A DNA stretch of 64,000 bases from Mycolicibacterium baixiangningiae. GTDB lineage: Bacteria > Actinomycetota > Actinomycetes > Mycobacteriales > Mycobacteriaceae. Below the pieces are notes generated by a model, which was not told where the DNA came from, did no database searches, and saw only the letters and a list, made by a program, of their open reading frames with translations. The translations under genes were made by a program, and so were the position numbers. The stretch covers positions 3,658,001-3,722,000 of the forward strand of contig NZ_CP066218.1 of assembly GCF_016313185.1 (NCBI RefSeq). The letters run 5' to 3'. Every line of letters begins with the position of its first letter. Position 1 is the stretch's first letter. This document shows, piece by piece, positions 12,871 through 29,892 of the stretch.

Positions 12871-12874
<4 letters not shown>
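12419..12874 (-). CDS. Flavodoxin-like NAD(P)H oxidoreductase
   Basis: A 151-residue flavodoxin-fold protein. The N-terminal FMN phosphate loop is recognisable as LLIVHHTPSPHCQEMFEAV. The second FMN-contact region is GYLLGTPVNLGYLSGALKHAFD, followed by RGRPFGVYLHGNEG. Proteins of this kind are short-chain flavin oxidoreductases of uncertain physiological partner. It overlaps the upstream membrane-protein gene by ATGA, and that gene overlaps dapB in turn, so dapB, the membrane protein and this gene form one transcription unit. A decayed copy lies at 11390-11590. Confidence 0.82.
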
Positions 12875-14078
<1,204 letters not shown>

Positions 14079-14235: not shown

Positions 14236-14510
14236 GTGTTCGAGTCACGGATGGAGAGCCGTCGTCGCAGCGCTCACGCAGTCCGAAGCTGCCCGCGCCG
14301 CGCTGACCGCCCTCCCCGTCGACTCCCTGACCGTCGACCAGATCCTCGCGGTCACCGAGATGCGTGAACGCGGCCGCCGCAGCGAACTCACCATCGACCA
14401 CGCCCTGACCATCCACCTCATCCACACCGCAACCCCGAACGACATGGGCGCCACCTCGCTCAAAGAGCTCGGCCAACCGGCTCCACATCACCGCCAAAGA
14501 CGCCGTCCCT
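14236..14510 (+). pseudogene. DUF222/13E12-family gene, N-terminal fragment
   Basis: From about 14258 the plus strand reads AVVAALTQSEAARAALTALP followed by DSLTVDQILAVTEMRERGRR and ATPNDMGATSLKEL. This is the N-terminal region of DUF222/REP13E12-type proteins. After SLKEL the frame shifts (consistent with a 2-base loss near 14470) and continues as ANRLHITAKDA up to about 14503, where similarity stops. A possible GTG start at 14236 is in another frame, so the gene is broken at both ends. A second fragment of the same family, same strand, from the middle of the protein, lies at 32868-33056 beyond the catabolic island. The 465-base stretch 14070-14534 holds nothing else I can support. Confidence 0.7.
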
Positions 14511-14534
14511 GCCCTGGCGATCCATAGAGGTTCG

Positions 14535-15470
14535 TCAGCTCAACGGATCGCCAGGGGTCACGGTGCCATGGTCGTTCAGAATGAACGCGGTGAGCTTGCC
14601 TTCGTGCACCGCCTTGTCGATGCGCAATGCCACCAGAGTCTTTTGGTAGTTCCACGAGCTGAGCTCCAGCGTGAGTTGGACGACCTGGTCCCGCGTGAAA
14701 TGTTGGAAGAGATCGGCTTTGATGGCGTCAGTGATGTTCGCAGGGTCGGTCATGTACACGTCGGCGTAGCGCAGTGCGGCTTTGGTGGCCGCCGACAGGT
14801 CAGCGCCCTCGAAGTCCGACTGCATCACAAGTCGGTCCGTCGCACCATCGACCACAGGAACCCCATCCTCGACCAAGCGCAAAGAATTGCACAGATCGCA
14901 GTGGTGATACCACCCGGCCCGCAACCGGACAATCTCGCGGACGAATGCACTCAGCTCAGCATCGGGCTTCACCGTCCCCGGCGCCAGAATGGTGTCGTGC
15001 CAAAGATTATTCGCCCGAATGGGAGTCAAGACTTTGCGATCTGCCGGCCATTCCGGAAAGTCCGCGGAGAACTCAGCGTCTCCGAAGAGCCGGCGGTGCG
15101 CTACCCGAAGCCGCGTGGTCTGGTCAACGGTGTAGATGGCCTCGATGAAGCTCCGCAGGCCGGTCTTGCCGAGCTGGTCGAGAACCGGGGCCAACAGCTC
15201 TGCATCGACATCGGGAACGTAGTCGACAAATTGCTCCACGACCGCGCTCGCAGCCGCCAGGTGCCCGCCACTCACCTCAGTGCTCGTACTGGTTGCGCCC
15301 TCGGGGTCGAGTAGGGCTTCGACTTGCTGGACGATCAGTGCGAACAACTCGCTGTCAAGCGATGACGCTGATGCCCGCCAGGCCCCTTCCAGCGCAAGAT
15401 ATGCAGCAGGACTGACCGCCGCGATGGCAGGCAGATGAAATCGCTCTATGAGGTCGGAATTCAACGACAC
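14535..15470 (-). CDS. AhpD/carboxymuconolactone-decarboxylase-like protein
   Basis: A 311-residue protein. Its C-terminal half has the AhpD/CMD-type redox motif in AFVREIVRLRAGWYHHCDLC (a CxxC, CDLC), followed by NSLRLVEDG and a helical tail (LTLELSSWNYQKTLVALRID). It is clearly longer than ordinary CMD proteins (about 100-190 residues), with an extra helical N-terminal domain. I start at the GTG preceded by GAAGGAGAG, not at the upstream ATG, whose extension runs through the promoter. It has its own promoter with the island-specific palindrome (15568-15619), so it belongs to the same regulon as both main operons. A peroxidase, decarboxylase or isomerase role is possible; the substrate is unknown. 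Confidence 0.75.
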   Translation of the reverse strand: MSLNSDLIERFHLPAIAAVSPAAYLALEGAWRASASSLDSELFALIVQQVEALLDPEGATSTSTEVSGGHLAAASAVVEQFVDYVPDVDAELLAPVLDQLGKTGLRSFIEAIYTVDQTTRLRVAHRRLFGDAEFSADFPEWPADRKVLTPIRANNLWHDTILAPGTVKPDAELSAFVREIVRLRAGWYHHCDLCNSLRLVEDGVPVVDGATDRLVMQSDFEGADLSAATKAALRYADVYMTDPANITDAIKADLFQHFTRDQVVQLTLELSSWNYQKTLVALRIDKAVHEGKLTAFILNDHGTVTPGDPLS

Positions 15471-15567
15471 AGGTAACTCTCCTTCAGATGGGGCTCGTTT
15501 GGTGTTCGGGAGCTGGATCGGCGCACCATGCTGATCAATTCGGGGCAGGGCAACTCGCTCATCAAAA

Positions 15568-15619
15568 AAACTACTGCGGTCGACCACACTCGTCAACACC
15601 CTGCAGAAAACTTTTCCGC
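15568..15619 (-). promoter_or_regulatory. Promoter and palindrome of the AhpD-like gene (island regulon site 1)
   Basis: On the minus strand GCGGAAAAGTTTTCTG (15604-15619) is followed by 7 bases, then TTGACG (-35, 15591-15596), a 17-base spacer and TAGTTT (-10, 15568-15573). The core GAAAA-C-TTTTC is a perfect palindrome. The same arrangement recurs at 24520-24573 and 24589-24642. A site just upstream of -35 fits an activator, for example one of the two IclR proteins of the island; which one is inference. Confidence 0.65.
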
Positions 15620-15630
15620 TTGCGGGTCTG

Positions 15631-16470
15631 TCATGCTCGCGCGGTGAATCCGGCATCCACTGTCATCTCCAAGCCGGTGACGTACCGCGCGGCATCCGAG
15701 GCCAAGAACAGCACCGCGTTACTGACGTCCTCGGGCTGCACTAGGTCAACTGGGAGCAGATTTCCGTCGAGATTCACCGCAGCCTTGGGGTAGGCCTGAA
15801 AAAAGGCAGGTAACTCAGGGTTTTCGACCATCTGCGTCGCGACGCCGGTCGGGTGCACCGTGTTCACCCGGATCGAGTGCTCCGCTAGTTCGTTAGCAAA
15901 GGCGCGGCACAATCCAACCACACCGTGCTTGGCGGCCACGTAGTCAGCCATCGAGCGCAGGCCCCTAATCCCGGCGGTGGAACTCGTGGCGATGATGGAT
16001 CCGCCGCGCTCGCCGGAGATCATCGCGGGTACAGCAGCCTTGATGGTGTTGAAGACGCCGGTGAGATTGGTGTCGATGCAGTCCCGCCAACGCTGGAGGT
16101 CGATGTCCTGGCTCTCGAAGGGGCCAGCTCCTCCTGCTCCGCCGAGTCCGTTCGTTCCCGCATTGGCGACCACGATGTCGATTCGCCCGAACGCAGCAAA
16201 TGCTTCGTCGACCGTCGCCTGAACCTGTTCGAAGTCACGGACATCACCCTGCTTGGCGATGATTTTTCGTCCGGTGGACTCGACCAGCTGGACGGTTTCT
16301 GCCAGATCCTCCGGTGTCGACATTGAGTACGGCACGGTGTCGATCTGGCCGCACAGATCGATGGCAACGATGTTCGCACCGTGTTGGGCGAGTGTGATGG
16401 CATGCCGGCGTCCTTGCCCGCGGGCGGCGCCTGTGACGAATGCTGTTCGGCCGTCGAGGTCGAAGTTCAC
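15631..16470 (-). CDS. Mycofactocin-coupled-type short-chain dehydrogenase (carveol dehydrogenase-like)
   Basis: A 279-residue SDR. It has the NAD site TGAARGQGR and then the characteristic DLCGQIDTVPYSMSTPEDLA insertion of the subgroup whose NAD stays bound and is re-oxidised by mycofactocin. The catalytic tetrad is present (ATSSTAG serine, YVAAK). Subgroup members oxidise alicyclic and terpenoid alcohols such as carveol. The start is GTG with AAGGAG upstream. It is the last gene of the minus-strand ABC/SDR operon, 59 bases after the preceding SDR. The substrate is probably a ring alcohol derived from the imported compound (inference). The mycofactocin system itself is not in this window. 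Confidence 0.85.
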   Translation of the reverse strand: MNFDLDGRTAFVTGAARGQGRRHAITLAQHGANIVAIDLCGQIDTVPYSMSTPEDLAETVQLVESTGRKIIAKQGDVRDFEQVQATVDEAFAAFGRIDIVVANAGTNGLGGAGGAGPFESQDIDLQRWRDCIDTNLTGVFNTIKAAVPAMISGERGGSIIATSSTAGIRGLRSMADYVAAKHGVVGLCRAFANELAEHSIRVNTVHPTGVATQMVENPELPAFFQAYPKAAVNLDGNLLPVDLVQPEDVSNAVLFLASDAARYVTGLEMTVDAGFTARA

Positions 16471-16529
16471 GATTTCTCCTTAACTACATGGTTATTGGAT
16501 TGCTGATGGCTAGTCGGGCAGTACGAATG

Positions 16530-17315
16530 TCACAGGGTTCTGATCGTTCCTCCGTCGAGAATGTGTTCGGCCCCGATGATCGACGGCGCGCGGTCCGACA
16601 CCAGGAACGCCACCAGCTCGGCAACCTCGACCGGCATCGCGACGCGGCCCAGTGGAACTCCGCCGTGGCGATCCATCAGTTCCTGCTTTCCGGATTCGAG
16701 GTCTGCGCCTCGCGCATCGGCCAGTTCACGGGCGAAGTCGACGGCCATGTCGGTTTCGACGATCCCGGGAGCGACGCTGTTTACCCGCACATTGTGTTTG
16801 GCGACGTCGGTCGCCAACGCCTTGCTGTATGCCGTAAGTGCCGCTTTGCTGCACGCGTACGGCACCGACGATGACAGTGGAAGACGACGCTGGATAGAAC
16901 TGATGTGTACGACCGCTCCCCTGCCCCGCTGAATCATGGCTGGTATGAAGGCACGATCGAGCCGGGCCGCGGATAGCAGATTCGTGTGCAAGGCGAAAGT
17001 CCAGTCCTCGTCGCTCATTGCAAGCACACCACCATCGGAGAGGGTGGCGCCGCCGGCCGAATGAATGAGTGTGTCGACCTCACCGAGCCTCTCGTCCACC
17101 TGCGCCTGCAACTGCTCGGCGAAACTGACTGAGGTCACATCCCCGAGGAAGACTTCTACACCGTCGAGTTGTGTTGCGGGAAGGGATCGTCCGATCACGC
17201 CGACTGCTGCACCACTGCGAGCGAATCGCGCTGCCACACTGGCGCCGATTCCCCGCGTGCCCCCGGTGACCAGAACCGTCCGTCCGGCGAACTCGTTTTC
17301 GTCGTTACTCTGCAT
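16530..17315 (-). CDS. Short-chain dehydrogenase/reductase
   Basis: A 261-residue classical SDR. It has TGGTRGIGA as nucleotide motif, the HISS serine, and YACSK as the catalytic Tyr-Lys pair. The C-terminal family phrase is VAFLVSDRAPSIIGAEHILDGG. The start ATG giving MQSNDENEF overlaps the end of the EthD-like gene; another ATG is three codons upstream. It is one of four different SDRs in one operon, suggesting several successive oxidations or reductions of ring hydroxyls or ketones. Cofactor and substrate cannot be assigned. Confidence 0.85.
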   Translation of the reverse strand: MQSNDENEFAGRTVLVTGGTRGIGASVAARFARSGAAVGVIGRSLPATQLDGVEVFLGDVTSVSFAEQLQAQVDERLGEVDTLIHSAGGATLSDGGVLAMSDEDWTFALHTNLLSAARLDRAFIPAMIQRGRGAVVHISSIQRRLPLSSSVPYACSKAALTAYSKALATDVAKHNVRVNSVAPGIVETDMAVDFARELADARGADLESGKQELMDRHGGVPLGRVAMPVEVAELVAFLVSDRAPSIIGAEHILDGGTIRTL

Positions 17316-18147
17316 TGACCGCACCTACCGTTCGGATGAGTTCTGCTGTTGATTTGCCGCGCCGACCGTCCAGGGTGATGGCGCCGTCGTGCACGAAGGT
17401 GATGGCTTCCCGTACGGGGTACACGTGCACCGCGCTGAACAGCTCTGCTTGAGCCGTCACAGTGGTGCTGAGTTCGTCGGTGTCCAGGAGCCGACGCCAC
17501 GCCAGCATGTTCTCGCAGGAGACATGCAACGCTGCGTGATGCTGCCGTTCCGCCGGTATCCGGTTGTCCAGAGCGTCTGGTTCCCATTGGGATTCGTGAT
17601 CGTCGTAGGGCTCCAACAGGTGCCCCGATACGGTGTTCACGAAACCACTGCCGAGGAACGTGTTCACCAGCGTGTCGCGGATGAAGGACCTGAATGGGCC
17701 GGTCTCGGCGTGCGCTCGCCGACGGATGAGCACCAGCACCGACTGGCCATCGGCCGGACCGGGTGCGTCCGCCCCTACGTGTCCGGCTGAGCCCAGAGCG
17801 TAGTAGCCGTAGGTGCCGTCGAAGCAGTTGCGCTCGTCGTCTGCCAGAGCGTCGGTTCCTGTCAACCAGCGATCGAAGTCTTCGCGACTGACGAACGCGC
17901 ACTGTGCCGCACCGTCGATACGCTCGTCGTCGGGCACCGTGGTGTTCACTGAGGGTGCAGTGGTCCAGTCGTGTGATCGCGGGCTATCGAGGTGAAACTG
18001 CCGGTAGAGGTCAATTCCGGGAATCGCTGCACACATCGGCCCGTGCACGTCGGCCCAGTATCTGCTGAACAGTGAGCCGTCCAATCCTGCGCGCCTCACC
18101 ACAGGGACCAGCCGGGTGAGGTCGTGCCGGGTCTGATCACCGGGCAC
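17305..18147 (-). CDS. EthD-domain (dimeric alpha/beta barrel) protein
   Basis: A 280-residue protein. Its N-terminal part carries the EthD-type signature SRYWADVHGPMCAAIPGIDL (residues about 29-48), with the His-Gly-Pro typical of this ferredoxin-like fold. The second half (from about 140, VLVLIRRRAHAETGPFRSFI) may be a second, diverged copy of the fold. Small EthD proteins often accompany monooxygenases or cyclases and act in degradation pathways, but no single reaction is established. It overlaps both neighbouring SDR genes by about 11 bases, so translation is coupled. Confidence 0.72.
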   Translation of the reverse strand: MPGDQTRHDLTRLVPVVRRAGLDGSLFSRYWADVHGPMCAAIPGIDLYRQFHLDSPRSHDWTTAPSVNTTVPDDERIDGAAQCAFVSREDFDRWLTGTDALADDERNCFDGTYGYYALGSAGHVGADAPGPADGQSVLVLIRRRAHAETGPFRSFIRDTLVNTFLGSGFVNTVSGHLLEPYDDHESQWEPDALDNRIPAERQHHAALHVSCENMLAWRRLLDTDELSTTVTAQAELFSAVHVYPVREAITFVHDGAITLDGRRGKSTAELIRTVGAVNAE

Positions 18148-18931
18148 TTTCGGCCATCACCTCTGCTGCCTGGAAGTCGAACCCGGCGGTGAGACCACCA
18201 TCGGCGAGGACGGTGGTGGCGAAGAGTGCTGAGGACTCCGGAGAGAGCAGATACATTGCTGCATTGGCGATCTCGGTGGCCTCCAAGATGCGTCCGAGCG
18301 GGTGCCGGGCTTCGCGGGCCTGGAGGAACGAGTCCGGATCCTTGGTCGATGACAGGTGACGCTCGAACAACCCTGCCTTCGTGGGGCCGGGAGCCAGCAT
18401 GTTGAACCGGATCCCACTGCGGGCGTAGTCCAACGCAATGGTGCGGATGGCGCCTGTGAGCGCCGATTTCGATGACGAATATGCTGCCAGTTGCTGGTCG
18501 GCGAAGTGTGCAACGACGCTGGTCAGCGCCACCACCGCCGCATACTCCGCGGAATGGAGCGCAGGTAGCAGCTTCTTAAGACCCAGTACCGTCCCCAAGA
18601 CATTGATCTCCCAAATTCGGCGCCACGTCGCCAAATCGTCATTCTCGAGCAGACCCGCCTCCAATACTCCGGCGACACTGAGGAATCCCAGGGCTCCGGT
18701 CTTGTCGCGGAGCTCGGCGACGACTCGATCCCACGTGTCCTCCACGGTGACACTGCCTTTTACATGGATATAGTTGGCGAGGCCGGCCAAATCAGCCGGC
18801 GAGGCCTGTGCATCGACGCCGATGACGTGGACTCCCTGCTGTGTCAACGACACTGCGCACTGGAGTCCGATTCCACTCGAGGTTCCGGTCACGACGACCG
18901 TATCGGGCAGGTTAGTCGTCCAAGAAATCAT
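18137..18931 (-). CDS. Short-chain dehydrogenase/reductase
   Basis: A 264-residue SDR with NAD motif TGTSSGIGL, catalytic region ALTSVVAHFADQQLAAYSSS followed by K, and a C-terminal LADGGLTAGFDFQ. The usual NNAG motif is replaced by LSVAGVLEAG, which is a notable deviation in the adenine-pocket strand. The ATG start has GGATGA upstream. It is third of the enzyme genes in the ABC/SDR operon and overlaps the EthD-like gene by 11 bases. Substrate unknown. Confidence 0.83.
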   Translation of the reverse strand: MISWTTNLPDTVVVTGTSSGIGLQCAVSLTQQGVHVIGVDAQASPADLAGLANYIHVKGSVTVEDTWDRVVAELRDKTGALGFLSVAGVLEAGLLENDDLATWRRIWEINVLGTVLGLKKLLPALHSAEYAAVVALTSVVAHFADQQLAAYSSSKSALTGAIRTIALDYARSGIRFNMLAPGPTKAGLFERHLSSTKDPDSFLQAREARHPLGRILEATEIANAAMYLLSPESSALFATTVLADGGLTAGFDFQAAEVMAESAR

Positions 18932-18978
18932 GTGTCATCCTTTAGTTTGGTGTTTCAAGAAGCGATGTCGAGCTTGGG

Positions 18979-19713
18979 TCAGTGCAGCGTGTATCCGCCG
19001 TCCATGACGAGATCGGTACCAGTGACCTGACTTGACTCATCGCTGGCGAGAAATACTGCGCCATAGCCGATTTCGTACGGTTCAGCGAGCCCGAGTGGCG
19101 TCTGGGCAACTACACCCGCGGTGACATCCGGCTGCCTCTCGGTGAGCGGGGTGCGAACAATCCCGGGAATGATGCTGTTGACCCGGATCCGATCCGGGGC
19201 GTACGTCATGGCGGCATTACGGGTGATCATCCGTACAGCACCCTTACTGGCGTGGTAGCTGGCGATGCCCGCCACCGCGACGATGCCCCAGCTGGACGCG
19301 ATGTTGACGATGGACCCTTTCCCGCGAGCACGCAGGTGCGGCACTGATTCCCGGATGCCGAGCATGGGGCCGGTGACATTGACCCTCATGGTTCGCTCCC
19401 AGTCTTCGACCACGACCTCGTCCAGGGCCTGGTAGTCGATCACCGCGGCGTTGTTGACGAGGACGTCCAGCCCGCCGCCGTCGCGCACCACTCCATTCAC
19501 GGTGTCGGCCCAGGACTCTTCGGAGGTGACGTCGAGGGTCGAGAACGACTGTCGCGCCAGAAGCGGGACGCTGGGATCCTTCACGTCGGTGAGCCGGACC
19601 ATCGCACCTGCCTGGCTGAGAGCGTCCGCGATCCCGCGGCCGATGCCGTCGGCTGCCCCGGTCACGATCGCAACCTTGCCTGCAAGCCGTTCGCTTTCAA
19701 CAGTTGTGGTCAT
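18979..19713 (-). CDS. Short-chain dehydrogenase/reductase
   Basis: A 244-residue SDR with TGAADGIGR, DVLVNNAAV, NIASSWG and YHASK, and the terminal phrase VTGTDLVMDGGYTLH. All classical catalytic residues are present. Its start overlaps the permease stop (ATGA), so enzyme production is translationally linked to the transporter. The sequence resembles cyclohexanol/3-alpha-hydroxysteroid-type dehydrogenases in general layout, but that is a weak guide to the substrate. Confidence 0.86.
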   Translation of the reverse strand: MTTTVESERLAGKVAIVTGAADGIGRGIADALSQAGAMVRLTDVKDPSVPLLARQSFSTLDVTSEESWADTVNGVVRDGGGLDVLVNNAAVIDYQALDEVVVEDWERTMRVNVTGPMLGIRESVPHLRARGKGSIVNIASSWGIVAVAGIASYHASKGAVRMITRNAAMTYAPDRIRVNSIIPGIVRTPLTERQPDVTAGVVAQTPLGLAEPYEIGYGAVFLASDESSQVTGTDLVMDGGYTLH

Positions 19714-20792
19714 ACTGCGGTCTCCTTCTGTCGACTTCCGGTAAAGGGTGGGGCGGCCTCACCTGCACTGCCGGCATCACCGCGACGCTGCGCTCGGCGG
19801 ATGCTCACCCGGCGCAGCAGAGGCATCGACACCGCGACCAGCAGTACCGCGGCCTGGATGAGGAGCTGCACGGAGTTGGGGGCACCGGTGCTGAGAACGA
19901 GCTGATCCAGCTGGGTGAGGAACAACGCAGCTGCGGCAATCGACCACACCTTCAGATCGCCACCAGTCAGCGCGTTGCCGGCAAGCACCACCGCAGCAAC
20001 CGACGGAAGCAGTTGATCGGCACCCAGGTCCAGCCCCGGAGTCTGCAGGTAAGCAGTCAAAAGTACGGCGGCGACCCCGTAGAAGATTGCCGAGATGACA
20101 TACGAACCACAGGTGATTCCCGGTACGTTGCCGCCGATCACTTTCAACGCAGCCGGGCTCTTGCCGGCCTGTGTAAGGCGCCGGCCAATCATGGTCCGGC
20201 GATTCACGATTGCGACGAAGGCCAGGATCGCCAACGCCAGGAGAAAGACGTTGGGCAGTCCGACCGTATTGCTGAGGGCGAACTGAGTCAGGCCCGCGGG
20301 CGCACTGGATGCGATTCCGCCCGAATAGAATTGGACGACACCGAGGAGCAGGGCGTTGACGGCCAGGGTGGCGACGATGGGCGTGATGTGCAGTTTGGTG
20401 ACCACCAACCCGTTGGCCAGCCCGCCGAGTGCTGCCGCGCCGATGGCGAACACGATCGCGAGGATGATGCCGTGCTGCGCTGCGAACTGAGTTAGAACCA
20501 GCCCCGATAGAGACATGATCCCTGGAATGGACAGATCGATGCCCCGCTGCTGGATCACCAGGCCCTGGCCGACGGCGATCAGCGCCAATACCCCGGCGAG
20601 GGGCAGCATGGTCATCAGTGCGGGTCCGTCCAGACTGCGCGCAGCGATCAGCGGACTGATCGCGAATAGCGCGATGGTCGCAGGCCAGACGAGGCCCATT
20701 CGAGTCGCTGAGTGCCAGAGCGTGGACGGAGTACCTTTCACCGAGTTCATAGTCTGAGTTCCTGGTTCGTTGTCGACGAGATGCTTTGTCAC
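19710..20792 (-). CDS. ABC transporter permease, sugar/RbsC type
   Basis: About 360 residues with 8-10 hydrophobic segments and the family phrases QGLVIQQRGIDLSIPGIMSL and VVLAGNALTGG. These place it with RbsC/XylH-like permeases of group 2 carbohydrate importers. The GTG start overlaps the stop of the ATPase-permease fusion (GTGA). Together with the permease half of that fusion it would supply the two membrane subunits of a heteromeric importer. It lies upstream of four SDR genes, so the imported molecule is probably their substrate. Confidence 0.85.
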   Translation of the reverse strand: MTKHLVDNEPGTQTMNSVKGTPSTLWHSATRMGLVWPATIALFAISPLIAARSLDGPALMTMLPLAGVLALIAVGQGLVIQQRGIDLSIPGIMSLSGLVLTQFAAQHGIILAIVFAIGAAALGGLANGLVVTKLHITPIVATLAVNALLLGVVQFYSGGIASSAPAGLTQFALSNTVGLPNVFLLALAILAFVAIVNRRTMIGRRLTQAGKSPAALKVIGGNVPGITCGSYVISAIFYGVAAVLLTAYLQTPGLDLGADQLLPSVAAVVLAGNALTGGDLKVWSIAAAALFLTQLDQLVLSTGAPNSVQLLIQAAVLLVAVSMPLLRRVSIRRAQRRGDAGSAGEAAPPFTGSRQKETAV

Positions 20793-23263
20793 AGCTGGTT
20801 CCTGCCCATCTGCGAGTAGATGCCGACGGCGGTGATGGTCAGCAGTCCCATGAGCCAGTACTGCCACGCCGAGCTGAGGTTGAGGAAGGCGGTGACGTTG
20901 CCGATCTGGGCGACCCCGATGGCTCCGAGCAGCGCGCCGACGAATGAGCCCTTCCCGCCGTAGATACTGGCTCCACCGAGGATTACCGCGGTGATACTCG
21001 CGAAGGTGAAGGTGGTTCCCGAGCCAGGGTCACCGATTCCTGTTTGGGCTGCCAGCAACAGTCCCGCGATGCCGGTGAAGAGTCCGGCGAGGAGATACCC
21101 GCCCAAACGGCACCACCAGACGTTGACTCCGAGAAGTCGGGCATTGTCGGGGTTAGAGCCCGTGGCGCGAAGCCGGGCTCCCCAGCCTGTCCGGTGCAGT
21201 GCGATCTCCAGAGCAACAGCGAGGACCACCGCGAACAGCGCGGCCGCGGGAATGATGCCGACCTTGGCCTGGATGATGTTCAGAACGGTGTCGGGGATCG
21301 CGCCCTCGGGCCGGGGCCTGATCAGTTGGCCCAGTCCCAGTGCTGCCATGTAGGTGCCCAGGGTTGCGATCACCGGGGATATGCCGAGCTTTGCGATGAG
21401 GAATCCGTTGACCAGCCCTGCCGCGAGACCGACTGCGACGGCGGTGGCGAGGGCGACCGCAACGCCGGTGAGGCCTCCACCGGCCGGCACAGTGAAGGAG
21501 ATGACGGCGACAGTCAGGCCCATGACCGGCCCCACCGACAAATCAATTCCGGCAAGGACCATGACCACCATCTGCGCGAGCGCGACGAAGGCCAGCGGGG
21601 CAAACATCGTCAGCAGATTGGTCATGTTCAGACCGCTGGCATAGCGATCGTTGGCCGAGGTTGCGATGAGGCCGAGGACGATCACCGCGATGGCGACGAC
21701 ACCAGCGGGCAACCAGCGGTTCATGGCTCCCGAAAGGAACCTGGACTGGCCTCGCTTGACTCCGGAATGCCGCATCGCCGTTGACGTCAGCGCCGTTTCG
21801 GTGATTCGCTGCGCCGAAAGGTGCTCGCCGGCCAACTCTTCGATCGCATTCCCTCGCGAGAAGACAACGACTCGATCGCACAGCCCGGCCAGCTCGACGG
21901 CGTCGGAGGAAACGACCACGGCAGCCGATCCGTCATCACACAGCTCTCGGAGGGTGCTGAAGATCTGCACGCGCGCGCCGGCGTCGACGCCTTGGGTTGG
22001 TTCGTCGGCCAGCAGCACCTTGGGTTGTTCGATGGCTGAGCGGGCGATCAGGGCCTTTTGTTGATTACCTCCCGACAGGGTGCCGACAACGGTCTCGACG
22101 CTTGGTGTCTTGATGTCGTACTCGGTGACTGCCTGGGCGGCAACAACACGAACAGCCGAGGTGTTGACAAATCCGAACTTGGTGTAGCGGTCAGCGGACC
22201 CTGCCGCGATGTTCTCTGCGACGCTCTCCGAAAGGAAGAGACCTGCGGAATGACGATCGTCTGTGATGAGACTGGTTCCACATTGCCGGGAGGACTTCAC
22301 CGACCCGAGTTTTACCGGTCGGCCGTCGACGGTGACTCGGCCGGTTGCCGGCTCCATACCGGCGATCGCGCGCAGTACGTCGCGCTGACCGCTGCCCTCG
22401 ATTCCGGCCAAGCCCAGGATTTCACCCGCTCGCACTGTCAGGTCGACATCATGAAATCCTCTGCCGGACAGCTTTTCAACCACAAGCATCGACGCTGCAT
22501 CAGCATCCAGCGTGGGTTTGTCCGGAAAGGTCTGACTCAGCGATCGGCCCAGCGCGAGTTGGACGATGCCGCGTTCGGTGGTGCCGGCGGTGTCAAACGT
22601 CCCTTGGATCTGACCATCGCGCAGGACGGTGAGACGACTGCAGAAGCGCTGGACCTCCCGGATGCGATGGGAGATGTAAACGATTCCGGTGCCTTGGGCT
22701 CGCAGATCCTCCACTAGGTCGTAAAGCTTGTCGACCTCATTGGCGGCCAGGTGCTCGGTCGGCTCGTCCAGAAGCAGCACGCAAGGTTGGGTCAGCGTTG
22801 CCTTCGTGATTTCGATGACGAATTGCTGCGCCAACGGGATATCGGACAGGGTGCTGGCCGGGTTGATGTCCATTCCCCATCGCGCCATGGCGTCGCGGGC
22901 CCAAGGGTTGATGTCTGATTCCATCAATCGCCGGTCGGGGTCTACACCGAGGGCCAAGTTCTCTGCCACCGTCAGGTGCGGAATCAAGGCGGGATGCTGA
23001 CGGACGATTCGAAGCCCGAGCGATCGGGCTGAGTTCGGATCTCCCTGCCTAAGAACGCTTCCGCCGATGTGTACCGATCCCGCGTCGGGAATCAGCGACC
23101 CCGCAGAGGCAGCAAGCAATGTCGACTTGCCCGCACCGTTCTCGCCTACCAGTCCGTGGATCTCACCGGGCAAGACTGTGAAGTCGACATTGTCGAGGGC
23201 GGTGACGCCGGGAAACGTCTTGGTGATGGCGCGCATGGTGAGCGCGGGGGTTGATGGTGTCAT
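20789..23263 (-). CDS. Fused sugar-type ABC ATPase (two nucleotide domains) and permease
   Basis: An 824-residue fusion. Residues about 8-240 form the first ATPase domain with intact Walker A GENGAGKST (40-48) and Walker B VLLLDEPTEH, but the signature is degenerate (LSDIPLAQQ). Residues about 265-505 form the second, with degenerate Walker A (GIEGSGQRD), intact signature LSGGNQQK and Walker B VLLADEPTQG. This complementary pattern is like RbsA. Residues about 520-824 are an RbsC-like permease (QMVVMVLAGIDLSVGPVMGL, VILGGASIYGGKGSFVGALL). RbsA and RbsC homologues are usually separate proteins, so the fusion is unusual. It overlaps the binding-protein gene by 4 bases. Confidence 0.88.
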   Translation of the reverse strand: MTPSTPALTMRAITKTFPGVTALDNVDFTVLPGEIHGLVGENGAGKSTLLAASAGSLIPDAGSVHIGGSVLRQGDPNSARSLGLRIVRQHPALIPHLTVAENLALGVDPDRRLMESDINPWARDAMARWGMDINPASTLSDIPLAQQFVIEITKATLTQPCVLLLDEPTEHLAANEVDKLYDLVEDLRAQGTGIVYISHRIREVQRFCSRLTVLRDGQIQGTFDTAGTTERGIVQLALGRSLSQTFPDKPTLDADAASMLVVEKLSGRGFHDVDLTVRAGEILGLAGIEGSGQRDVLRAIAGMEPATGRVTVDGRPVKLGSVKSSRQCGTSLITDDRHSAGLFLSESVAENIAAGSADRYTKFGFVNTSAVRVVAAQAVTEYDIKTPSVETVVGTLSGGNQQKALIARSAIEQPKVLLADEPTQGVDAGARVQIFSTLRELCDDGSAAVVVSSDAVELAGLCDRVVVFSRGNAIEELAGEHLSAQRITETALTSTAMRHSGVKRGQSRFLSGAMNRWLPAGVVAIAVIVLGLIATSANDRYASGLNMTNLLTMFAPLAFVALAQMVVMVLAGIDLSVGPVMGLTVAVISFTVPAGGGLTGVAVALATAVAVGLAAGLVNGFLIAKLGISPVIATLGTYMAALGLGQLIRPRPEGAIPDTVLNIIQAKVGIIPAAALFAVVLAVALEIALHRTGWGARLRATGSNPDNARLLGVNVWWCRLGGYLLAGLFTGIAGLLLAAQTGIGDPGSGTTFTFASITAVILGGASIYGGKGSFVGALLGAIGVAQIGNVTAFLNLSSAWQYWLMGLLTITAVGIYSQMGRNQL

Positions 23264-24393
23264 GAGGCGCCTCGGGTGAATAGTTCGCTGAGTTGGGCTT
23301 CGGTGAGGAAGGTCGACAGACTGGCGTCAGGAGGGAGATCTGGATTGCACTGCGGGGCAAGCTCGCCGCCGGCGATCGAATCCTCGAAGAACGGGAGGTT
23401 GACGATGGTCGGCTCCGTATCGGGAATACCCTGCGCGGCTGCAAGACCGTGCCTGAGCGCCACTCGCGTCATCCAGGGGCGCAGCGACTGGGTGGCGATC
23501 TGGAACTGCGGTTGCGACGGCGCGATTTGTTCCCAGAGACAAGAGAATTCGTTTGCGTCGCTGGTGGCCCATACCGGTAGTGGCCGTCCGGCTCCCAGGA
23601 ACGCGCGGATGCCGCCGACCGATCCGCCACCGTAGGTCGAGATGACTCCGTCGATATTCGGGTACTTGGTCAAAGCGCCGGCGACAGCCTGTTGCGTCTT
23701 GCCGACTTCCCAGTCGGTCACCAGGTAGTCGTCCCCGAGGAGCGTCATGTCGGGATACTTGGCCAGTGCCTGCTGCACGGCCAAATAGGTCTGATGGCTG
23801 TACGCGTTTCCGGCTGGACCGCCGAGGACGATTACCGAGCCCTTGTCGCCAAGGGCGCCCGCCACCCAGTCGGTGAGAGTCTTGCCGAACTCGTCGACGT
23901 TCTCCGCGACGAAGGCCGTGTAGTCCCGGCCAGGAACACCACCGGGATCGGAAATGAAGGGCACCACCTGCACACCGGCTGCCGTAGCGCGCCGCACCGC
24001 CGGGAGGTCGGCAGGCCCGAGGTCCTGGGCGATGATGATGTCAACGCCCTGTGCCACGAGGCTGTCGATGTTGGCCCGCATGCGCTGCGGGTCGTTCTGG
24101 GAGTCGACGTAAAGCGTCTTCGTGATATTGGGACATCTGCGTGCTTCGTCATCGAACTCGGCGCGCTGAATCATCCGAGCCGCGTTGTTCGCTGAAATAA
24201 CCAGGTAGGCGACAGTTACATCCTTGTCGCCGCACAACTCCCGAATATCGGTGAAGTCCTCGATCTCCCCCACTCGGGGCGGCTCTACGGCCCCGGTGTT
24301 CTCCGACACCGCGGGAGTGATGGTGCAACCTGCGACCGCGATGGCCGAGACCATCGCCCCCAACACGTTCAACGCGCCTCTAGACCATCGCAA
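23260..24393 (-). CDS. ABC importer substrate-binding lipoprotein (sugar-binding type)
   Basis: A 377-residue lipoprotein. The lipobox is VAGC with Cys23. The mature part has the periplasmic-binding-protein type 1 fold pattern (TVAYLVISANNAARMIQRAE, LVAQGVDIIIAQD, VPFISDPGG, IDGVISTYGGGSVGG). It captures the substrate outside the membrane for the permeases encoded downstream. It is the first gene of the minus-strand operon, about 120 bases from a promoter carrying the island palindrome. The family binds sugars, cyclitols and sometimes other polyhydroxylated molecules; the ligand here is unknown. Confidence 0.86.
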   Translation of the reverse strand: MRWSRGALNVLGAMVSAIAVAGCTITPAVSENTGAVEPPRVGEIEDFTDIRELCGDKDVTVAYLVISANNAARMIQRAEFDDEARRCPNITKTLYVDSQNDPQRMRANIDSLVAQGVDIIIAQDLGPADLPAVRRATAAGVQVVPFISDPGGVPGRDYTAFVAENVDEFGKTLTDWVAGALGDKGSVIVLGGPAGNAYSHQTYLAVQQALAKYPDMTLLGDDYLVTDWEVGKTQQAVAGALTKYPNIDGVISTYGGGSVGGIRAFLGAGRPLPVWATSDANEFSCLWEQIAPSQPQFQIATQSLRPWMTRVALRHGLAAAQGIPDTEPTIVNLPFFEDSIAGGELAPQCNPDLPPDASLSTFLTEAQLSELFTRGAS

Positions 24394-24519
24394 TGGAATC
24401 TCCCATGAAGTGAATGCGGCGCATCGCCGCTGATTGGGGCGGGATGCAACTCGCTCGTGGTGACCGAGCTCTCCGCTGGCCGGTCGGTGTGACCTAGATC
24501 ATCCTGCTCGGCGAGACCG

Positions 24520-24573
24520 AACTTACAGACCCATTCGACGACACGTCAAGTGACTAACAGAAATGTTTTCCGC
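24520..24573 (-). promoter_or_regulatory. Promoter and palindrome of the ABC/SDR operon (island regulon site 2)
   Basis: On the minus strand GCGGAAAACATTTCTG (24558-24573) is followed by 8 bases, TTGACG (-35, 24544-24549), an 18-base spacer and TAAGTT (-10, 24520-24525). The site matches site 1 in 14 of 16 positions. It lies in the 311-base divergent region 24394-24704, back to back with site 3. The remaining 24394-24519 is the untranslated leader of the binding-protein gene. Confidence 0.62.
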
Positions 24574-24588
24574 AGGATCGCGACGGCA

Positions 24589-24642
24589 GCGGAAAAGTTT
24601 TCCAAACTCTGATTGACTCCGACTTCCGAACGTGTCTAACAT
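24589..24642 (+). promoter_or_regulatory. Promoter and palindrome of the NTF2-ALDH operon (island regulon site 3)
   Basis: GCGGAAAAGTTTTCCA (24589-24604) contains the perfect palindrome GGAAAA-G-TTTTCC. It is followed by 8 bases, TTGACT (-35, 24613-24618), an 18-base spacer and TAACAT (-10, 24637-24642). Sites 2 and 3 lie back to back with their GCGG ends 15 bases apart, so one bound regulator array could control both divergent operons. The leader from about 24650 to the ATG at 24705 has no other feature. Confidence 0.65.
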
Positions 24643-24704
24643 CACGCCAAGGCGTATCCACCAAGGACCGGGTTATGCATGAAGCGACGACTGAAAGATG
24701 AGGG

Positions 24705-25610
24705 ATGGGCACTCAGGCGACAGACCGCGACGCTCGTCGGGCAGTGGCAATCGACTACTTCCGCCGGCTCGACGCCGGTCGAGAGATGATTGACCTGTTC
24801 GGCGAACACGCCGAGATCCACTTCCCAAAGTGGGGAATCGCAAGGGGCCACAAAGAAATTCAACAGATGTGGTCCGAAGTCGGGGTGCTCTATCGGTCGA
24901 TCAGCCACTTCACCGAGTTCCTGAACTACGCGTTCGACGACAGTCTCGTGTTCGTCGAAGGCCTCAGCGACGGTGTAGCCGGTGACGGAACACCTTGGAT
25001 CGGGGGCCAGACCTGGGCGGGACGCTGGTGCGACGTCATGGAGATTCGCGACGGCAAGATCGAACGACTGTACATTTACCTCGACCCCGACTACGCCGGC
25101 GCAGACACCCAGCGATACCCGTGGATCACCGATGGCCTGCCGCCTGCCGCGCGGGCGCTGCCCGCCCCGGCACAGAGGAAACACCAGCCCATGACCGATC
25201 ACGACCGAGCCGCGGTGGTGCGCGACTACTTCCAGCGACTGGACTCCGGGGCACCCGTCGAGGAACTCTTCGCCGAACACGCCACCTCCTATTACCCGAA
25301 ATGGGGGGTAGCGCACGGAGCGGCCGCGGTGGGACAGCAGCACCGTGATGTGGCAACCGCGTACACGCAGATATCGCACGTCAGCGAATACCTGAACATC
25401 GTCGTCGACGGCGAAGTCGTCGCGGCAGAGGGGTTGACCGTCGGAACCACCACAGACGGCACGACTTGGAGAGCCGGACAATCTCTTTCGGGACGCTTTT
25501 GCGCAATTTTCGAGGTGCGTGAATTTGCCATCGAGCGGTGTTTCACGTACCTCGACCCGGACCTCACCGATGCGGACTCCGCCCGCTACCCGTGGCTTGT
25601 GTCGAACTGA
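24705..25610 (+). CDS. Tandem NTF2/SnoaL-like protein
   Basis: A 301-residue protein made of two similar halves. Residues about 13-145 and 167-299 share DYFxRLDxG, a LFxEHA motif, YPKWG/FPKWG, ARGH/AHGA, ISHxxEYLN/ISHFTEFLN, WxxGQxxxGRxC and YLDPDxxxADxxRYPW. Each half looks like a complete SnoaL-like NTF2 fold, and the second half even begins with MTDHDRAAVVRDYFQRLDSG like a free-standing gene. NTF2-like proteins include dehydratases and isomerases of ring compounds (scytalone dehydratase, ketosteroid isomerase, SnoaL). A dehydration or isomerisation step in this pathway is plausible but unproven. It is first in the plus-strand operon. Confidence 0.78.
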   Translation: MGTQATDRDARRAVAIDYFRRLDAGREMIDLFGEHAEIHFPKWGIARGHKEIQQMWSEVGVLYRSISHFTEFLNYAFDDSLVFVEGLSDGVAGDGTPWIGGQTWAGRWCDVMEIRDGKIERLYIYLDPDYAGADTQRYPWITDGLPPAARALPAPAQRKHQPMTDHDRAAVVRDYFQRLDSGAPVEELFAEHATSYYPKWGVAHGAAAVGQQHRDVATAYTQISHVSEYLNIVVDGEVVAAEGLTVGTTTDGTTWRAGQSLSGRFCAIFEVREFAIERCFTYLDPDLTDADSARYPWLVSN

Positions 25611-25619
25611 AGGACTGAC

Positions 25620-27053
25620 ATGACATCACCGATCACTTCCGCGGACAATCTCATTGACGGCAAGCTGATCTCTTCCGAAGTCCTCACGTCCTCAGTGAGC
25701 CCCGCAAACGGCACCGTTCTGGGTACGTTCTCCGAAGCCACACCAACAAGCTCCCAGGAGGCAATTGCTGCCGCCCGCCGCGCGTTCGACGAGTTGGACT
25801 GGTCTCGCGATCGGCGACAACGGCACCGCGCGCTGACAGCGCTGGCTGACGAAATCGACAGGCACAGCGAAACTCTCGTGGCTATGCTGGCCCGCGAAAA
25901 CGGCAAAACGGCCGGAGAGGCCGGTTTTGAGCTGAGCCTCACCGCACCGAAGCTGCGTTACTACGCCGCACTGGCGCTGACCGAGAGCGGGCGCGCCGCC
26001 GAAGTGTCCCCCGGCATACACATGAGTTCAGTGCCGGAAGCCGTTGGAGTGGTCGGGATCATCACGCCCTGGAACTCCCCCGTTGTGCTGTCCGTACGCT
26101 CGCTGGCACCCGCCCTGGCTGCCGGGTGCACCGCCGTGGTGAAGATGCCCGGTCAAACCGGGCTAGTGAATGGGCTGCTCCACGAGATCATTCAGTCGGT
26201 CGCGGCGATTCCCGCCGGGGTGGTCAACTCGCTCACCGAGTCCGGCGACCACCTGGCGCGGCTCCTCGTCGAATCACCCGACGTCGACGCTATCAGCTAC
26301 ACGGGTAGCACCCGGGTGGGGCGCCAGATTCTGGCCACCGGCGCCAAGACTCTGAAGCGGGTCTCCCTGGAACTCGGCGGCAAGACTCCTATGATCGTTC
26401 TCGACGACGCCGACCTCGACGCTGCCGTCCCCGTATTAGTCAAGGCCATCACCACTTTCAGCGGCCAGTTCTGCATGACCGGCAGCCGCATCCTCGCCCA
26501 GCGGTCTGTCGCCGCCGAGCTGCGGACCCGTCTCATTGAGGCTCTGACTGCGGTGCGAATCGGACCCGGTGAGGACCCAGCCAGCGACATGGGACCGATG
26601 ATCGATGCCGCGAACGCTGAGCGCGTCCATCGGGAGGTGGAAGCGGCGTCGGCCTATGCGACAGTCCTCGTGCGCGGTGGTGTCCGGCCGGGAACTGCCT
26701 ACTACGAACCGTCTCTGCTCGAGGTCGACGATCCCGGGAAGCCAATCGTCCAGGAAGAAACCTTCGGCCCCGTCGCCACCTTCGAGGTGTTCGACACCGA
26801 CGACGACGCGGTCCGCTGGGCCAACAGCACCGATTACGGTCTGGCGGCGTCCATTTGGTCCAGGGACATCGATCGGCCGCGACGGATCGGCCGCGCTCTG
26901 CGCGCCGGCACCGTATGGACGAACACCTGGGCCCTGGTTGCCGATCAATTTGAAGAGGGCGGCTTCAAGCAGAGCGGGGTCGGTCGCTTGAATGGTCTGC
27001 GGGGGCTCGAAGAATTCCAGGAATACAAGACCTATGTCCAGGTCACGGGCTAG
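25620..27053 (+). CDS. NAD(P)-dependent aldehyde dehydrogenase
   Basis: A 477-residue ALDH. It has the cofactor region IITPWNSPVVL, the SYTGSTRVGRQI motif, the general-base glutamate in LELGGKTP (near 254), the catalytic cysteine in FSGQFCMTGSR (near 288) and the family EETFGPVA and SGVGR phrases. It oxidises an aldehyde to the acid, most simply the product of the zinc alcohol dehydrogenase encoded two genes on. It follows the NTF2 gene by 9 bases. Confidence 0.93.
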   Translation: MTSPITSADNLIDGKLISSEVLTSSVSPANGTVLGTFSEATPTSSQEAIAAARRAFDELDWSRDRRQRHRALTALADEIDRHSETLVAMLARENGKTAGEAGFELSLTAPKLRYYAALALTESGRAAEVSPGIHMSSVPEAVGVVGIITPWNSPVVLSVRSLAPALAAGCTAVVKMPGQTGLVNGLLHEIIQSVAAIPAGVVNSLTESGDHLARLLVESPDVDAISYTGSTRVGRQILATGAKTLKRVSLELGGKTPMIVLDDADLDAAVPVLVKAITTFSGQFCMTGSRILAQRSVAAELRTRLIEALTAVRIGPGEDPASDMGPMIDAANAERVHREVEAASAYATVLVRGGVRPGTAYYEPSLLEVDDPGKPIVQEETFGPVATFEVFDTDDDAVRWANSTDYGLAASIWSRDIDRPRRIGRALRAGTVWTNTWALVADQFEEGGFKQSGVGRLNGLRGLEEFQEYKTYVQVTG

Positions 27054-27105
27054 CGCTCACGCTTCGAAGGTGTAAGTGTGGATACCGAGCAAGGGGATGG
27101 CGACG

Positions 27106-27897
27106 ATGGCGAACGCGACAGACGGGCCGGTCAAATCGGTCAAGTATCCGGTCGAGTCCGTGGCCAACGCCGCACGGATCCTGTTGATGCTGTCCTCCGA
27201 CACCCAGTTGAAGCTCTCAGATGTCGCCGATCATCTCGGCACTTCGCCCTCGACCGCGCATCGCCTGCTGACCACGCTCGAGGCGTCTGGTTTTCTGCAC
27301 CAGCATGAGACAACTCGGTGTTATGAGCCCGGCGACGCGCTGCGGACGTTGGCTGCAGCAATCGCCCCAGAGCGATCGCGGTGGGACTTTGCGCTGCCGT
27401 ACCTGCAGGAACTCAGCGAACGAGTGGACGAAACGGTCAATTTGCAGGTGCTTCACGGTAGCGACATCGCCTTCGTGGAGTCCGCAGAATCCACCGCGGC
27501 GTTGCGGGTGGGCTCCCGGCGCGGAGCCATCATGCCCGCGCATGCGACCTCGGGCGGCAAAATTTTACTCGCTCAGCTTGATAGCGAGCAGCTCGAGGCG
27601 CTATTGGCCCAGAACGAACTGACACGGCTCACTGACGACACCATCAGCGACACCACCACGTTTCTCAACGAGCTCAAACGTGTCCGCAAGCGTGGCTATG
27701 CCACCAATCTCGGAGAGAGCGAGCCGGGAATCGGCGGCGTAGCGGTGGCCGTCCCCACTGACGGCCGGCCAGCGCGCTATGCATTGGCAGTGTCGGTTCC
27801 CACCTCGCGGCTCTCGCGGTCACGAATTCCGGCACTGGTCTCCGAATTGATGAAAACCGCTGCCCTGTTGAGCGAGAGCGATCCCGACGGGCGCTGA
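27106..27897 (+). CDS. IclR-family transcriptional regulator (first of two)
   Basis: About 263 residues. The winged helix-turn-helix is at 16-75 (LKLSDVADHLGTSPSTAHRL). The IclR ligand domain includes ETVNLQVLHGSDIAFVESAE, PAHATSGGKILLAQL and RGYATNLGESEPGIGGVAVA. I start at the ATG giving MANATDGP because AAGGGG lies at proper distance; a GTG 10 codons upstream is possible. IclR proteins commonly act on aromatic or sugar catabolic genes, as repressors or activators. It sits between ALDH and ADH genes. It is a candidate for binding the GCGGAAAA palindromes, but this cannot be told from sequence. Confidence 0.88.
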   Translation: MANATDGPVKSVKYPVESVANAARILLMLSSDTQLKLSDVADHLGTSPSTAHRLLTTLEASGFLHQHETTRCYEPGDALRTLAAAIAPERSRWDFALPYLQELSERVDETVNLQVLHGSDIAFVESAESTAALRVGSRRGAIMPAHATSGGKILLAQLDSEQLEALLAQNELTRLTDDTISDTTTFLNELKRVRKRGYATNLGESEPGIGGVAVAVPTDGRPARYALAVSVPTSRLSRSRIPALVSELMKTAALLSESDPDGR

Positions 27898-27940
27898 TTC
27901 ACCGGTTCACACCAATACCCACCATGATTGGAGAACATCC

Positions 27941-29056
27941 ATGCGCGTGAGCGCAGCCGTTGTAGAACGAACCGGCGCACCCTTCACCATCGTCGACGTC
28001 GATCTCGCTGACCCCCGCGATCACGAGATCGTCGTTCGAATCGTCGCTACCGGGCTGTGTCACACCGATCTCAGTGCTCGCGGCGGGACAACGCCGTTTC
28101 CATTGCCCGCCGTGCTGGGCCACGAAGGTGCCGGGGTGGTCGAGCGAGTCGGTCCCAAGGTGAGCGCCCTCGCCGTCGGCGACCACGTCCTGATCAGCTT
28201 CACCTCCTGCGGTCACTGCCGAGCGTGCCAGGAAGGACACCCCGTCTACTGCCGGGACTGGGTGCCGCTGAATCTCCTCGGCGGTTCGCGTCTCGATGGC
28301 TCCGCGACCATCACCCGTGAGGATGGTCCCGCACTTCACGGACACTTCTTCGGACAGTCCTCGTTCGCAACCCGCGCATTGGTCAACGAGTCCGCTGCAG
28401 TGAAGGTCCCCCGCGATCTGGACCTGGCCACCCTGGCCCCGCTCGGGTGCAGTGTGCAAACGGGTGTTGGTGCCGTGCTTAATGTCGCACGCCCCGAACC
28501 CGGCAGCACCCTTGTTGTATTCGGGGTCGGCGGAGTCGGTTTGGCGGCGATCATGGGAGCCGTTCTGACTCCAGCCGCACAGATCGTCGCTGTCGATGTA
28601 AAGGCCTCCCGGCTCGCACTTGCTGCAGAGTTGGGAGCGACGCACACCATCGATTCCAGTTCCACCGACCCAGCAGAGGCTATCGCTGAGCTGACCGGCG
28701 GCGCCGGGGCGAACTACGCACTCGAGACCAGCGGCCGACTCGACGTGCTCGGAGCCGCTGTCTCAGTGCTGGCATCCGCGGGAACCTGCGTCGTCATCGG
28801 CGCCCCCGCCCTCGGTTCGACGCTGCCCGTAGACGTCACCAACCTGTTGGGCCGGGGCATTCGCCTGCTCGGGTCCAATCAAGGCAATAGCAACCCCGCC
28901 CGCCTCCTTCCGCAGTTGGTCGCGCTACACCGAGCAGGCAGGCTGCCATTCGATCGGCTGATCCGGACATATCCGTTTGCGGACATTAATACTGCAGTCG
29001 CTGACGCGACCAGCGGTGAGACGGTGAAACCGGTTCTGCTCATGCCGCAGCATTGA
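27941..29056 (+). CDS. Zinc-dependent alcohol dehydrogenase
   Basis: A 371-residue medium-chain dehydrogenase. Catalytic zinc ligands are visible as GLCHTD and GHEGAG. The structural zinc loop SCGHCRACQEGHPVYC has its four cysteines. The NAD-binding motif is VVFGVGGVGLAA, followed by an acidic VDVKASR that suggests NAD preference. It is closest in layout to aryl-alcohol (benzyl alcohol) dehydrogenases. It probably oxidises a primary alcohol to an aldehyde for the ALDH of the same operon. It is followed immediately, with stop/start overlap, by a second IclR gene. Confidence 0.92.
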   Translation: MRVSAAVVERTGAPFTIVDVDLADPRDHEIVVRIVATGLCHTDLSARGGTTPFPLPAVLGHEGAGVVERVGPKVSALAVGDHVLISFTSCGHCRACQEGHPVYCRDWVPLNLLGGSRLDGSATITREDGPALHGHFFGQSSFATRALVNESAAVKVPRDLDLATLAPLGCSVQTGVGAVLNVARPEPGSTLVVFGVGGVGLAAIMGAVLTPAAQIVAVDVKASRLALAAELGATHTIDSSSTDPAEAIAELTGGAGANYALETSGRLDVLGAAVSVLASAGTCVVIGAPALGSTLPVDVTNLLGRGIRLLGSNQGNSNPARLLPQLVALHRAGRLPFDRLIRTYPFADINTAVADATSGETVKPVLLMPQH

Positions 29057-29886: not shown

Positions 29887-29892
29887 GTCCGC

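Follow-up and report, generated by a model that had tools for sequence, protein, structure and literature searches.

Which regulator, if any, unites three promoters of common build within a cluster of catabolic genes? The question is raised by a 64,000-nucleotide stretch of the Mycolicibacterium baixiangningiae genome (contig NZ_CP066218.1, positions 3,658,001 to 3,722,000), referred to here as the window, for which a reading of the sequence alone had proposed a regulon of three promoters, each with the same palindrome just upstream of its -35 box. The analysis described here assigns these palindromes (operators 1, 2 and 3), with a probability of roughly 0.6, to IclR1, a regulator of the IclR family encoded in the same 18-kb gene cluster (the island), which would activate the three transcripts in an inducer-dependent manner; a second regulator of this family, IclR2, would act at a fourth site.

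Three palindromes and their promoters

The palindrome was searched for with the degenerate 16-mer pattern GCGGAAAANNTTTCYR, using the reversed pattern as a control. Exact matches are located at 15604-15619 and 24558-24573 on the minus strand and at 24589-24604 on the plus strand. These 16-mers end 7, 8 and 8 bases upstream of the -35 hexamers TTGACG, TTGACG and TTGACT, which are followed, after spacers of 17, 18 and 18 bases, by the TA-rich -10 hexamers TAGTTT, TAAGTT and TAACAT. Positions, gaps and spacers are as the sequence-only reading had given them, and the promoters indeed precede the AhpD-like gene, the ABC/SDR operon and the NTF2/ALDH (aldehyde dehydrogenase) operon. The palindrome itself had been taken as 16 bases long; the 16-mers stand, but the centre is odd, so that the operator in its full length comprises 17 bases, GCRGAA-N5-TTCYGC, and ends 6-7 bases before the -35 box. 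Operators 1, 2 and 3 score 12, 11 and 10 of 12, respectively, against this consensus.

Operator 1 (GCGGAAAAGTTTTCTGC, 15603-15619, minus strand) lies in the gap between the genes for SDR1 and the AhpD-like protein, on the same strand as both, and is followed by the putative AhpD-like promoter (15568-15596, minus strand; -35 box at 15591-15596, -10 box at 15568-15573). Operators 2 and 3 are arranged back to back in the region that separates the ABC/SDR operon from the NTF2/ALDH operon; their centres are 32 bp apart. Operator 2 (GCGGAAAACATTTCTGT, 24557-24573, minus strand) belongs to the putative ABC/SDR promoter (24520-24549, minus strand; -35 box at 24544-24549, -10 box at 24520-24525), and operator 3 (GCGGAAAAGTTTTCCAA, 24589-24605, plus strand) to the putative NTF2/ALDH promoter (24613-24642, plus strand; -35 box at 24613-24618, -10 box at 24637-24642). 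At all three promoters the operator overlaps neither the -35 nor the -10 box. By-eye comparison with a published consensus shows that operators 1-3 fit group 2 of the IclR-type motifs, defined by inverted GRAA/TTYC half-sites around a short centre (PMC8222616). A third, outer box was sought by eye at operators 1-3 and none was found.

In the 6,181,092-base genome the 16-mer pattern has three exact matches, which are operators 1-3, and the reversed control has none. The bare core, GGAAANNNTTTCY, gives six rows at five places in the genome, and three of the five places are operators 1-3. Among 396 genomes of the genus the exact motif is present in 19; outside the two genomes with the island (see below), 17 genomes carry it at 18 places in total. 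Unlike the three places in the island, none of these 18 has a TTGAC in the 16 bases to either side. From the density in the genus, taking 5.7 Mb per genome, the 18-kb island would be expected to contain approximately 1.4e-4 exact matches. Further members of the regulon were looked for with GGAA-N5-TTC followed by TTGAC 6-12 bases on; this combination occurs at six places, and the three new ones, which lack A/T-rich inner bases, were not added. Looser genome-wide motifs were dropped because specificity was lost.

The island comprises positions 14535-32613 and is common to a second genome, denoted G168, as one unit. Its double NTF2-like protein is detected at E ≤ 1e-20 in two of the 396 genus genomes, namely the present one and G168, and the latter (loci L070/L071) keeps the whole cluster in the same gene order as one homologous block, with 86.4 and 87.9% nucleotide identity over the two stretches fetched. 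G168 retains 79 of the 87 footprint positions at the promoters, compared with 270 of the 382 remaining positions of this intergenic DNA (Fisher p 3e-5). When the footprint is slid rigidly along the alignment, the observed value is reached at 4 of 189 offsets in the divergent region and at 1 of 107 in the AhpD-like region, the true position being counted. All three operators have counterparts in G168, where the spacing between operators 2 and 3 is equal; the counterpart of operator 1, GCGGAAAATAGTTCTGC, is one base off the pattern of the sequence-only reading. The -35 and -10 boxes of the ABC/SDR and NTF2/ALDH promoters are identical in G168, and those of the AhpD-like promoter are identical at 6 of 6 and 5 of 6 positions, respectively.

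Candidate regulators and half-site arrangements

IclR1 (27076-27897, plus strand) scores above the Pfam curated cut-offs for HTH_IclR (49.6 bits, cut-off 22) and IclR_C (138.7 bits, cut-off 24). Its gene begins 22 bases past the ALDH gene and is therefore probably part of the NTF2/ALDH operon. Among 198 genomes of the genus Arthrobacter a single one, that of Arthrobacter sp. 31Y, encodes an IclR1 ortholog at E ≤ 1e-55 (53% identity). In this strain iclR1 and a luciferase-like monooxygenase/oligopeptide-ABC operon (named by reading the translations) point away from each other, and the region between them holds GCAGAAATATTTTCTGC, which matches GCRGAA-N5-TTCYGC at 12 of 12. The site lies on the strand of the operon, 6 bases before TTGACA, in the same geometry as in the island, with no clear -10 box. 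In 832 kb of DNA from 43 loci (L004-L046) the 17-mer is not found at 12 of 12, and is found 8 times at 11 of 12 and 149 times at 10 of 12. A second site in the Arthrobacter region is of a three-box type, TTCTGC-N3-GAGGAA-N5-TTCTGT, its N5 pair being centred 37 bp from the first site. No separate relatives of IclR2 or of the dioxygenase, FAH-family hydrolase and isomerase encoded next to it (see below) were found by tblastn in 34 kb around the Arthrobacter locus. The proposed regulon of three promoters thus gains support from the uniqueness of the motif in the genome, from its conservation in G168 and from the occurrence of the palindrome with TTGAC beside the Arthrobacter ortholog of IclR1. 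At E ≤ 1e-60, IclR1 orthologs among 397 genomes of the order are confined to the window's own genome, and of the 20 genomes from which 20 of the 43 loci derive, eight have matches at E ≤ 1e-35, with a best identity of 43%. A protein of Rhodococcus sp. WS4 (P0067) shares 83% identity with IclR1.

With IclR1 as a query, nine IclR-type genes are detected in the genome, of which seven lie outside the island, and other regulator families can also bind A/T-rich palindromes. A regulator encoded elsewhere in the genome is nevertheless very unlikely to be the protein that binds operators 1-3, since no exact site is present outside the island, the operators accompany the island at its different location in G168, and none of the seven other IclR proteins belongs to the clade of IclR1.

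This clade was defined in a tree of 38 IclR proteins, from which five rows duplicating other loci had first been removed and in which good support was obtained for 15 of the 35 inner branches. The IclR1 clade (support 100/100, seven rows) is separate from a gentisate clade that includes IclR2 (96/91, 13 rows), and two plasmid regulators fall into a third clade (98/88), which has three rows. The gentisate clade is named after the gentisate-dioxygenase-like genes near which its members are encoded, the neighbours having been checked for part of the rows. In 10 of its 13 rows the half-boxes of operators 1-3 are found in the opposite (group 1) arrangement, TTCYGC-N3-GCRGAA, at 11 or 12 of 12 and at or near an end of the iclR gene; eight of these come from a scan of gene ends and two (L006 and L013, where the starts of the open reading frames are over-extended) from a separate scan. 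In the other three, L005 (with a score of 10), L016 and L019, no such site reaches 11 of 12, and the rows of IclR2 and its G168 ortholog represent the same site in two genomes. GCRGAA-N5-TTCYGC at 11 or better is found in none of the 13 rows. In random 580-base stretches, which were drawn from loci L004-L046, some of them loci with true sites, a score of 11 is reached in 15 of 1500 for TTCYGC-N3-GCRGAA and in 11 of 1500 for GCRGAA-N5-TTCYGC. Three rows of the IclR1 clade have DNA context, i.e. the two island genomes and Arthrobacter sp. 31Y; within this small sample, the arrangement goes with the clade. GGAAA-N3-TTTCC at 8 of 10 or better is absent from eight of nine IclR/dioxygenase intergenic stretches, and the ninth has one weak match of 8 of 10.

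The fourth site of the island, TTCTGTAGCGCAGAA (29894-29908, plus strand), which had not been part of the sequence-only reading, shows the group 1 arrangement at 11 of 12 and is identical in G168 at all 15 positions. It is situated between the gene for IclR2 (29053-29886, plus strand), whose assignment to the gentisate clade follows from the tree and Pfam, and the gentisate-dioxygenase-like gene. Within 14400-33000 it is the sole match to TTCTGC-N3-GCAGAA at 10 of 12. TTCTG-N5-CAGAA occurs at three places in the genome, and TTCYG-N5-CRGAA with TTGAC 4-12 bases downstream occurs at the fourth site only. The putative promoter of the dioxygenase-like gene (29915-29942, plus strand) consists of TTGACT at 29915-29920 and TAACGT at 29937-29942, and the listed TTG start at 29929 falls inside it. 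The ATG at 29950 is only 7 nucleotides past the -10 box, so that the mRNA is possibly leaderless; G168 keeps TAACGT and an ATG 7 bases later, and does not keep the -35 box.

The genes that follow (29950-32602, plus strand) encode, as judged from NCBIfam and Pfam, a gentisate-1,2-dioxygenase-like protein (29950-31026), an FAH-family hydrolase (31029-31853) and a member of the mycothiol-dependent maleylpyruvate-isomerase family (31850-32602), the latter with 99.7 bits against MDMPI_N (cut-off 24.2). The dioxygenase-like protein scores 282.1 bits (E 4.9e-84) against the NCBIfam equivalog TIGR02272, below the cut-off of 442.1, which makes it a relative whose substrate is not assured and the name gentisate-type pathway tentative. 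As a member of the gentisate clade, IclR2 would fit the fourth site as its regulator.

Between the two IclR proteins the sequence-only reading had made no choice; for operators 1-3, the evidence favours IclR1 over IclR2. Most likely, two paralogous IclR proteins with near-identical recognition helices share the island, IclR1 serving uptake and the upper steps and IclR2 ring cleavage, and would be told apart by the arrangement of the half-sites. An IclR1 dimer would read GCRGAA-N5-TTCYGC centred approximately 50-52 bases upstream of the predicted transcription starts (placed 7 bases past the -10 box), just upstream of the -35 box, and in the presence of a pathway compound would recruit RNA polymerase. 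In this way the AhpD-like gene, the ABC/SDR operon (uptake) and the NTF2/ALDH operon (upper oxidation steps) could be activated, and IclR1 may exert feedback on itself if, as the gene spacing suggests, its gene is part of the last of these. The distance of 32 bp between operators 2 and 3 corresponds to about three helical turns, so that two dimers could act together. IclR2 would read the fourth site and control ring cleavage.

Several observations weigh against this reading. When up to two mismatches are allowed, the genome contains 61 rows compared with 19 for the reversed control, and with up to three mismatches the window contains 16 rows, the mean of 100 shuffles being 6.3 and one of them reaching 16. 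Such looser forms being common, specificity is limited to the tight form. The three promoters have weak -10 boxes, and the -35/-10 hexamers alone occur at chance frequency (3 promoter-like sites in 18.6 kb, compared with 3.2 in shuffles); the promoter-hexamer filter is passed by the NTF2 promoter but not by the other two. What carries the case is thus the palindrome, together with where it stands and how well it is conserved. An origin of the palindromes by chance, or as sequence without function, might be suggested by these frequencies but is scarcely credible in view of the uniqueness of the exact motif against the small number expected in an island of this size, its conservation in G168 and its association with IclR1 in Arthrobacter.

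A second group of objections concerns the identity of the regulator. The association of the site with IclR1 comprises, apart from the present genome, one other island genome and one Arthrobacter ortholog, and the Arthrobacter region contains a group 1 pair, TTCTGC-N3-GAGGAA, inside its three-box site. Moreover, IclR1 and IclR2 share the sequence PSTAHRLL in the recognition-helix region of their helix-turn-helix domains, and IclR2 might therefore bind operators 1-3 too; by the same token, the difference between the two proteins may lie in the setting of the dimer rather than in the bases read. IclR2, alone or with IclR1, could then bind all four sites by alternative dimerization and read both arrangements. 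The equal half-boxes at the four sites, the three-box sites of Rhodococcus DK176, Arthrobacter keyseri and Arthrobacter sp. 31Y, and the alternative dimerization proposed in PMC8222616 all speak for this possibility, which is nonetheless improbable given the predominance of a single arrangement in the gentisate clade and the presence of the other one beside the Arthrobacter IclR1 ortholog, with no separate IclR2 in the surrounding 34 kb.

Assuming that IclR1 does bind operators 1-3, the direction of its effect is to be considered. An activator role is suggested by the operator position, and repression from an upstream site may occur; IclR1 could thus be a repressor or dual regulator that is released by the inducer. 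In its title, a paper on GenR of Corynebacterium glutamicum reportedly states both activation and repression. The IclR family is described as including repressors, activators and dual regulators (PMC8222616). We regard repression or dual control as rather unlikely for operators 1-3, which are clear of both hexamers at all three promoters, as is the site at the Arthrobacter promoter. The -35 boxes of the island promoters are good and the -10 boxes weak, a pattern seen in many activated promoters.

The island and its AhpD-like gene

The remainder of the 64-kb window has no blastn match (1e-10) in the 34 kb fetched around the island in G168, and six flanking window proteins, identified by reading as ThyA, DfrA, DapB, the product of an open reading frame at 12871-13335, an Lrp-type regulator and Ald, have no tblastn match in that region. 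The island thus occupies a different genomic place in G168. It is bounded on one side by the stop codon of the AhpD-like gene and on the other by a point 11 bases beyond the isomerase gene. With its different place in G168 and its ends at gene ends, 14535-32613 is a putative mobile catabolic cluster, which probably breaks down an aromatic-type compound. A literature search, judged on entries, found no published description of the island.

The ABC/SDR operon begins with a periplasmic sugar-type binding protein (Peripla_BP_4; 23260-24393, minus strand) and is predicted to include further genes at 15631-23263 on the same strand, which encode SDR1, SDR2, an EthD-domain protein, SDR3, SDR4, a permease and an ABC ATPase-permease fusion (assigned with Pfam, and with NCBIfam for the ATPase). 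In its leader, GGTGTGACCTAGATCATCC at 24486-24504 is fully conserved in G168 and may in part resemble a CRP site (TGTGA-N6-TCATC). The NTF2/ALDH operon starts with a double SnoaL/NTF2-like protein (24705-25610) and an aldehyde dehydrogenase (25620-27053; together 24705-27053, plus strand; Pfam and NCBIfam), and a zinc-type alcohol dehydrogenase is encoded downstream of iclR1 (27941-29056, plus strand; NCBIfam).

The AhpD-like gene (14535-15470, minus strand) encodes an AhpD/carboxymuconolactone-decarboxylase-like protein of 311 residues, a tentative assignment based on homologs, a structure model and Foldseek. Its two closest homologs have 311 residues and are in register with a GTG start at 15470, not 15656, which indicates that the listed open reading frame of 373 residues is over-extended and that operator 1 lies outside the coding sequence. 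In their source annotations, some homologs belong to the carboxymuconolactone decarboxylase or the alkylhydroperoxidase family, and both cysteines of the motif HHCDLCNS are invariant in 15 rows. The predicted model, which is good (predicted local distance difference test score, pLDDT, 87; predicted template modelling score, pTM, 0.88), has its best Foldseek matches among antioxidant-defence/AhpD proteins (3c1l, 2gmy, 7xw1 and 2prr); these matches are weak, with E-values of 0.014 or worse and none at 0.001. A 327-residue version of the protein gave no Pfam match at E ≤ 1, and the protein scores 21.8 of 310 bits against the NCBIfam YciW-related family. It is longer than the matched AhpD-type chains (311 versus 133-191 residues), and an overlay of the model on the two-lobed sestrin-2, longer than the AhpD overlays, is loose and poor. 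The gene is not lone, as had been stated in the sequence-only reading, but lies downstream of the SDR1 gene on the same strand. The proposed tie of the gene to the pathway is supported by operator 1 and by its terminal place in the 18-kb block; the second line of support, in which its stop marks the end of the block shared with G168, is independent of the motif.

Comparison with known IclR systems

The proposed regulon is small and well delimited, has IclR1 as its candidate regulator, and ties an otherwise unplaced AhpD-like gene to the pathway. The closest parallels in operator structure are found in PMC8222616. The motifs of E. coli IclR (TGGAAATNATTTCCA) and AllR (KTTGGAAWAWTWTTCCAAC), listed in its Table 1, have GGAA...TTCC half-sites in the same orientation and with an odd centre as in operators 1-3, the core GGAAA-N3-TTTCC of IclR being identical in spacing. 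Operators 1-3 differ from them in their flanks, which are GC(G/A) instead of T/TT, in their position upstream of the -35 box at mycobacterial catabolic promoters, and in that the regulator is a distant paralog. The group 2 motif TGRAACA-N1-2-TGTTYCA (Suvorova and Gelfand 2021, PMC8222616) also agrees with operators 1-3 in the orientation GRAA...TTYC and in spacing, whereas the inner bases of the latter are A/T-rich (AA, not CA), with no third box seen. In the available part of PMC8369764 nothing on operators was found.

The half-boxes themselves have been described for the gentisate (nag) operon of Rhodococcus sp. TFB, which has palindromes of the type TTCTGC-N3-GCAGAA (PMC3937715); the authors note the same type in R. 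opacus B4 and RHA1 and consider that it may serve gentisate genes as an IclR site. The fourth site of the island, before the dioxygenase-like gene, is of this type, whereas operators 1-3 carry the half-boxes in reverse arrangement. The same half-boxes are also found with the IclR proteins of Rhodococcus DK-strain plasmids and Arthrobacter keyseri pRE1, plasmid relatives of IclR1 (41-43% identity, eight records) that are encoded beside aromatic-ring dioxygenase operons. In these operons, unlike the island, the site is a three-box one, CTCTGC-N3-GCAGAA-N5-TTCTGT or its mirror (L080:7817-7842; L079:7252-7277), and contains both arrangements at once. We take these to be phthalate operons; the records speak of Rieske or aromatic-ring dioxygenases.

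Tentatively, and with less confidence than we place in the assignment of IclR1, these likenesses may be explained by two paralogs with a common PSTAHRLL helix that read one half-box (CRGAA/TTCYG), IclR1 as GCRGAA-N5-TTCYGC and IclR2 as TTCYGC-N3-GCRGAA, the IclR1 lineage having lost one outer box of an ancestral three-box site, a form that persists next to the related plasmid regulators of Rhodococcus and Arthrobacter and at one site of Arthrobacter sp. 31Y, so that specificity would have diverged via dimer geometry and not via base recognition. The authors of PMC8222616 state that their proposal of two-way dimerization of IclR proteins on DNA requires experimental validation, and IclR1 and IclR2, with their inverted half-site arrangements, provide a natural test of it within a single island.

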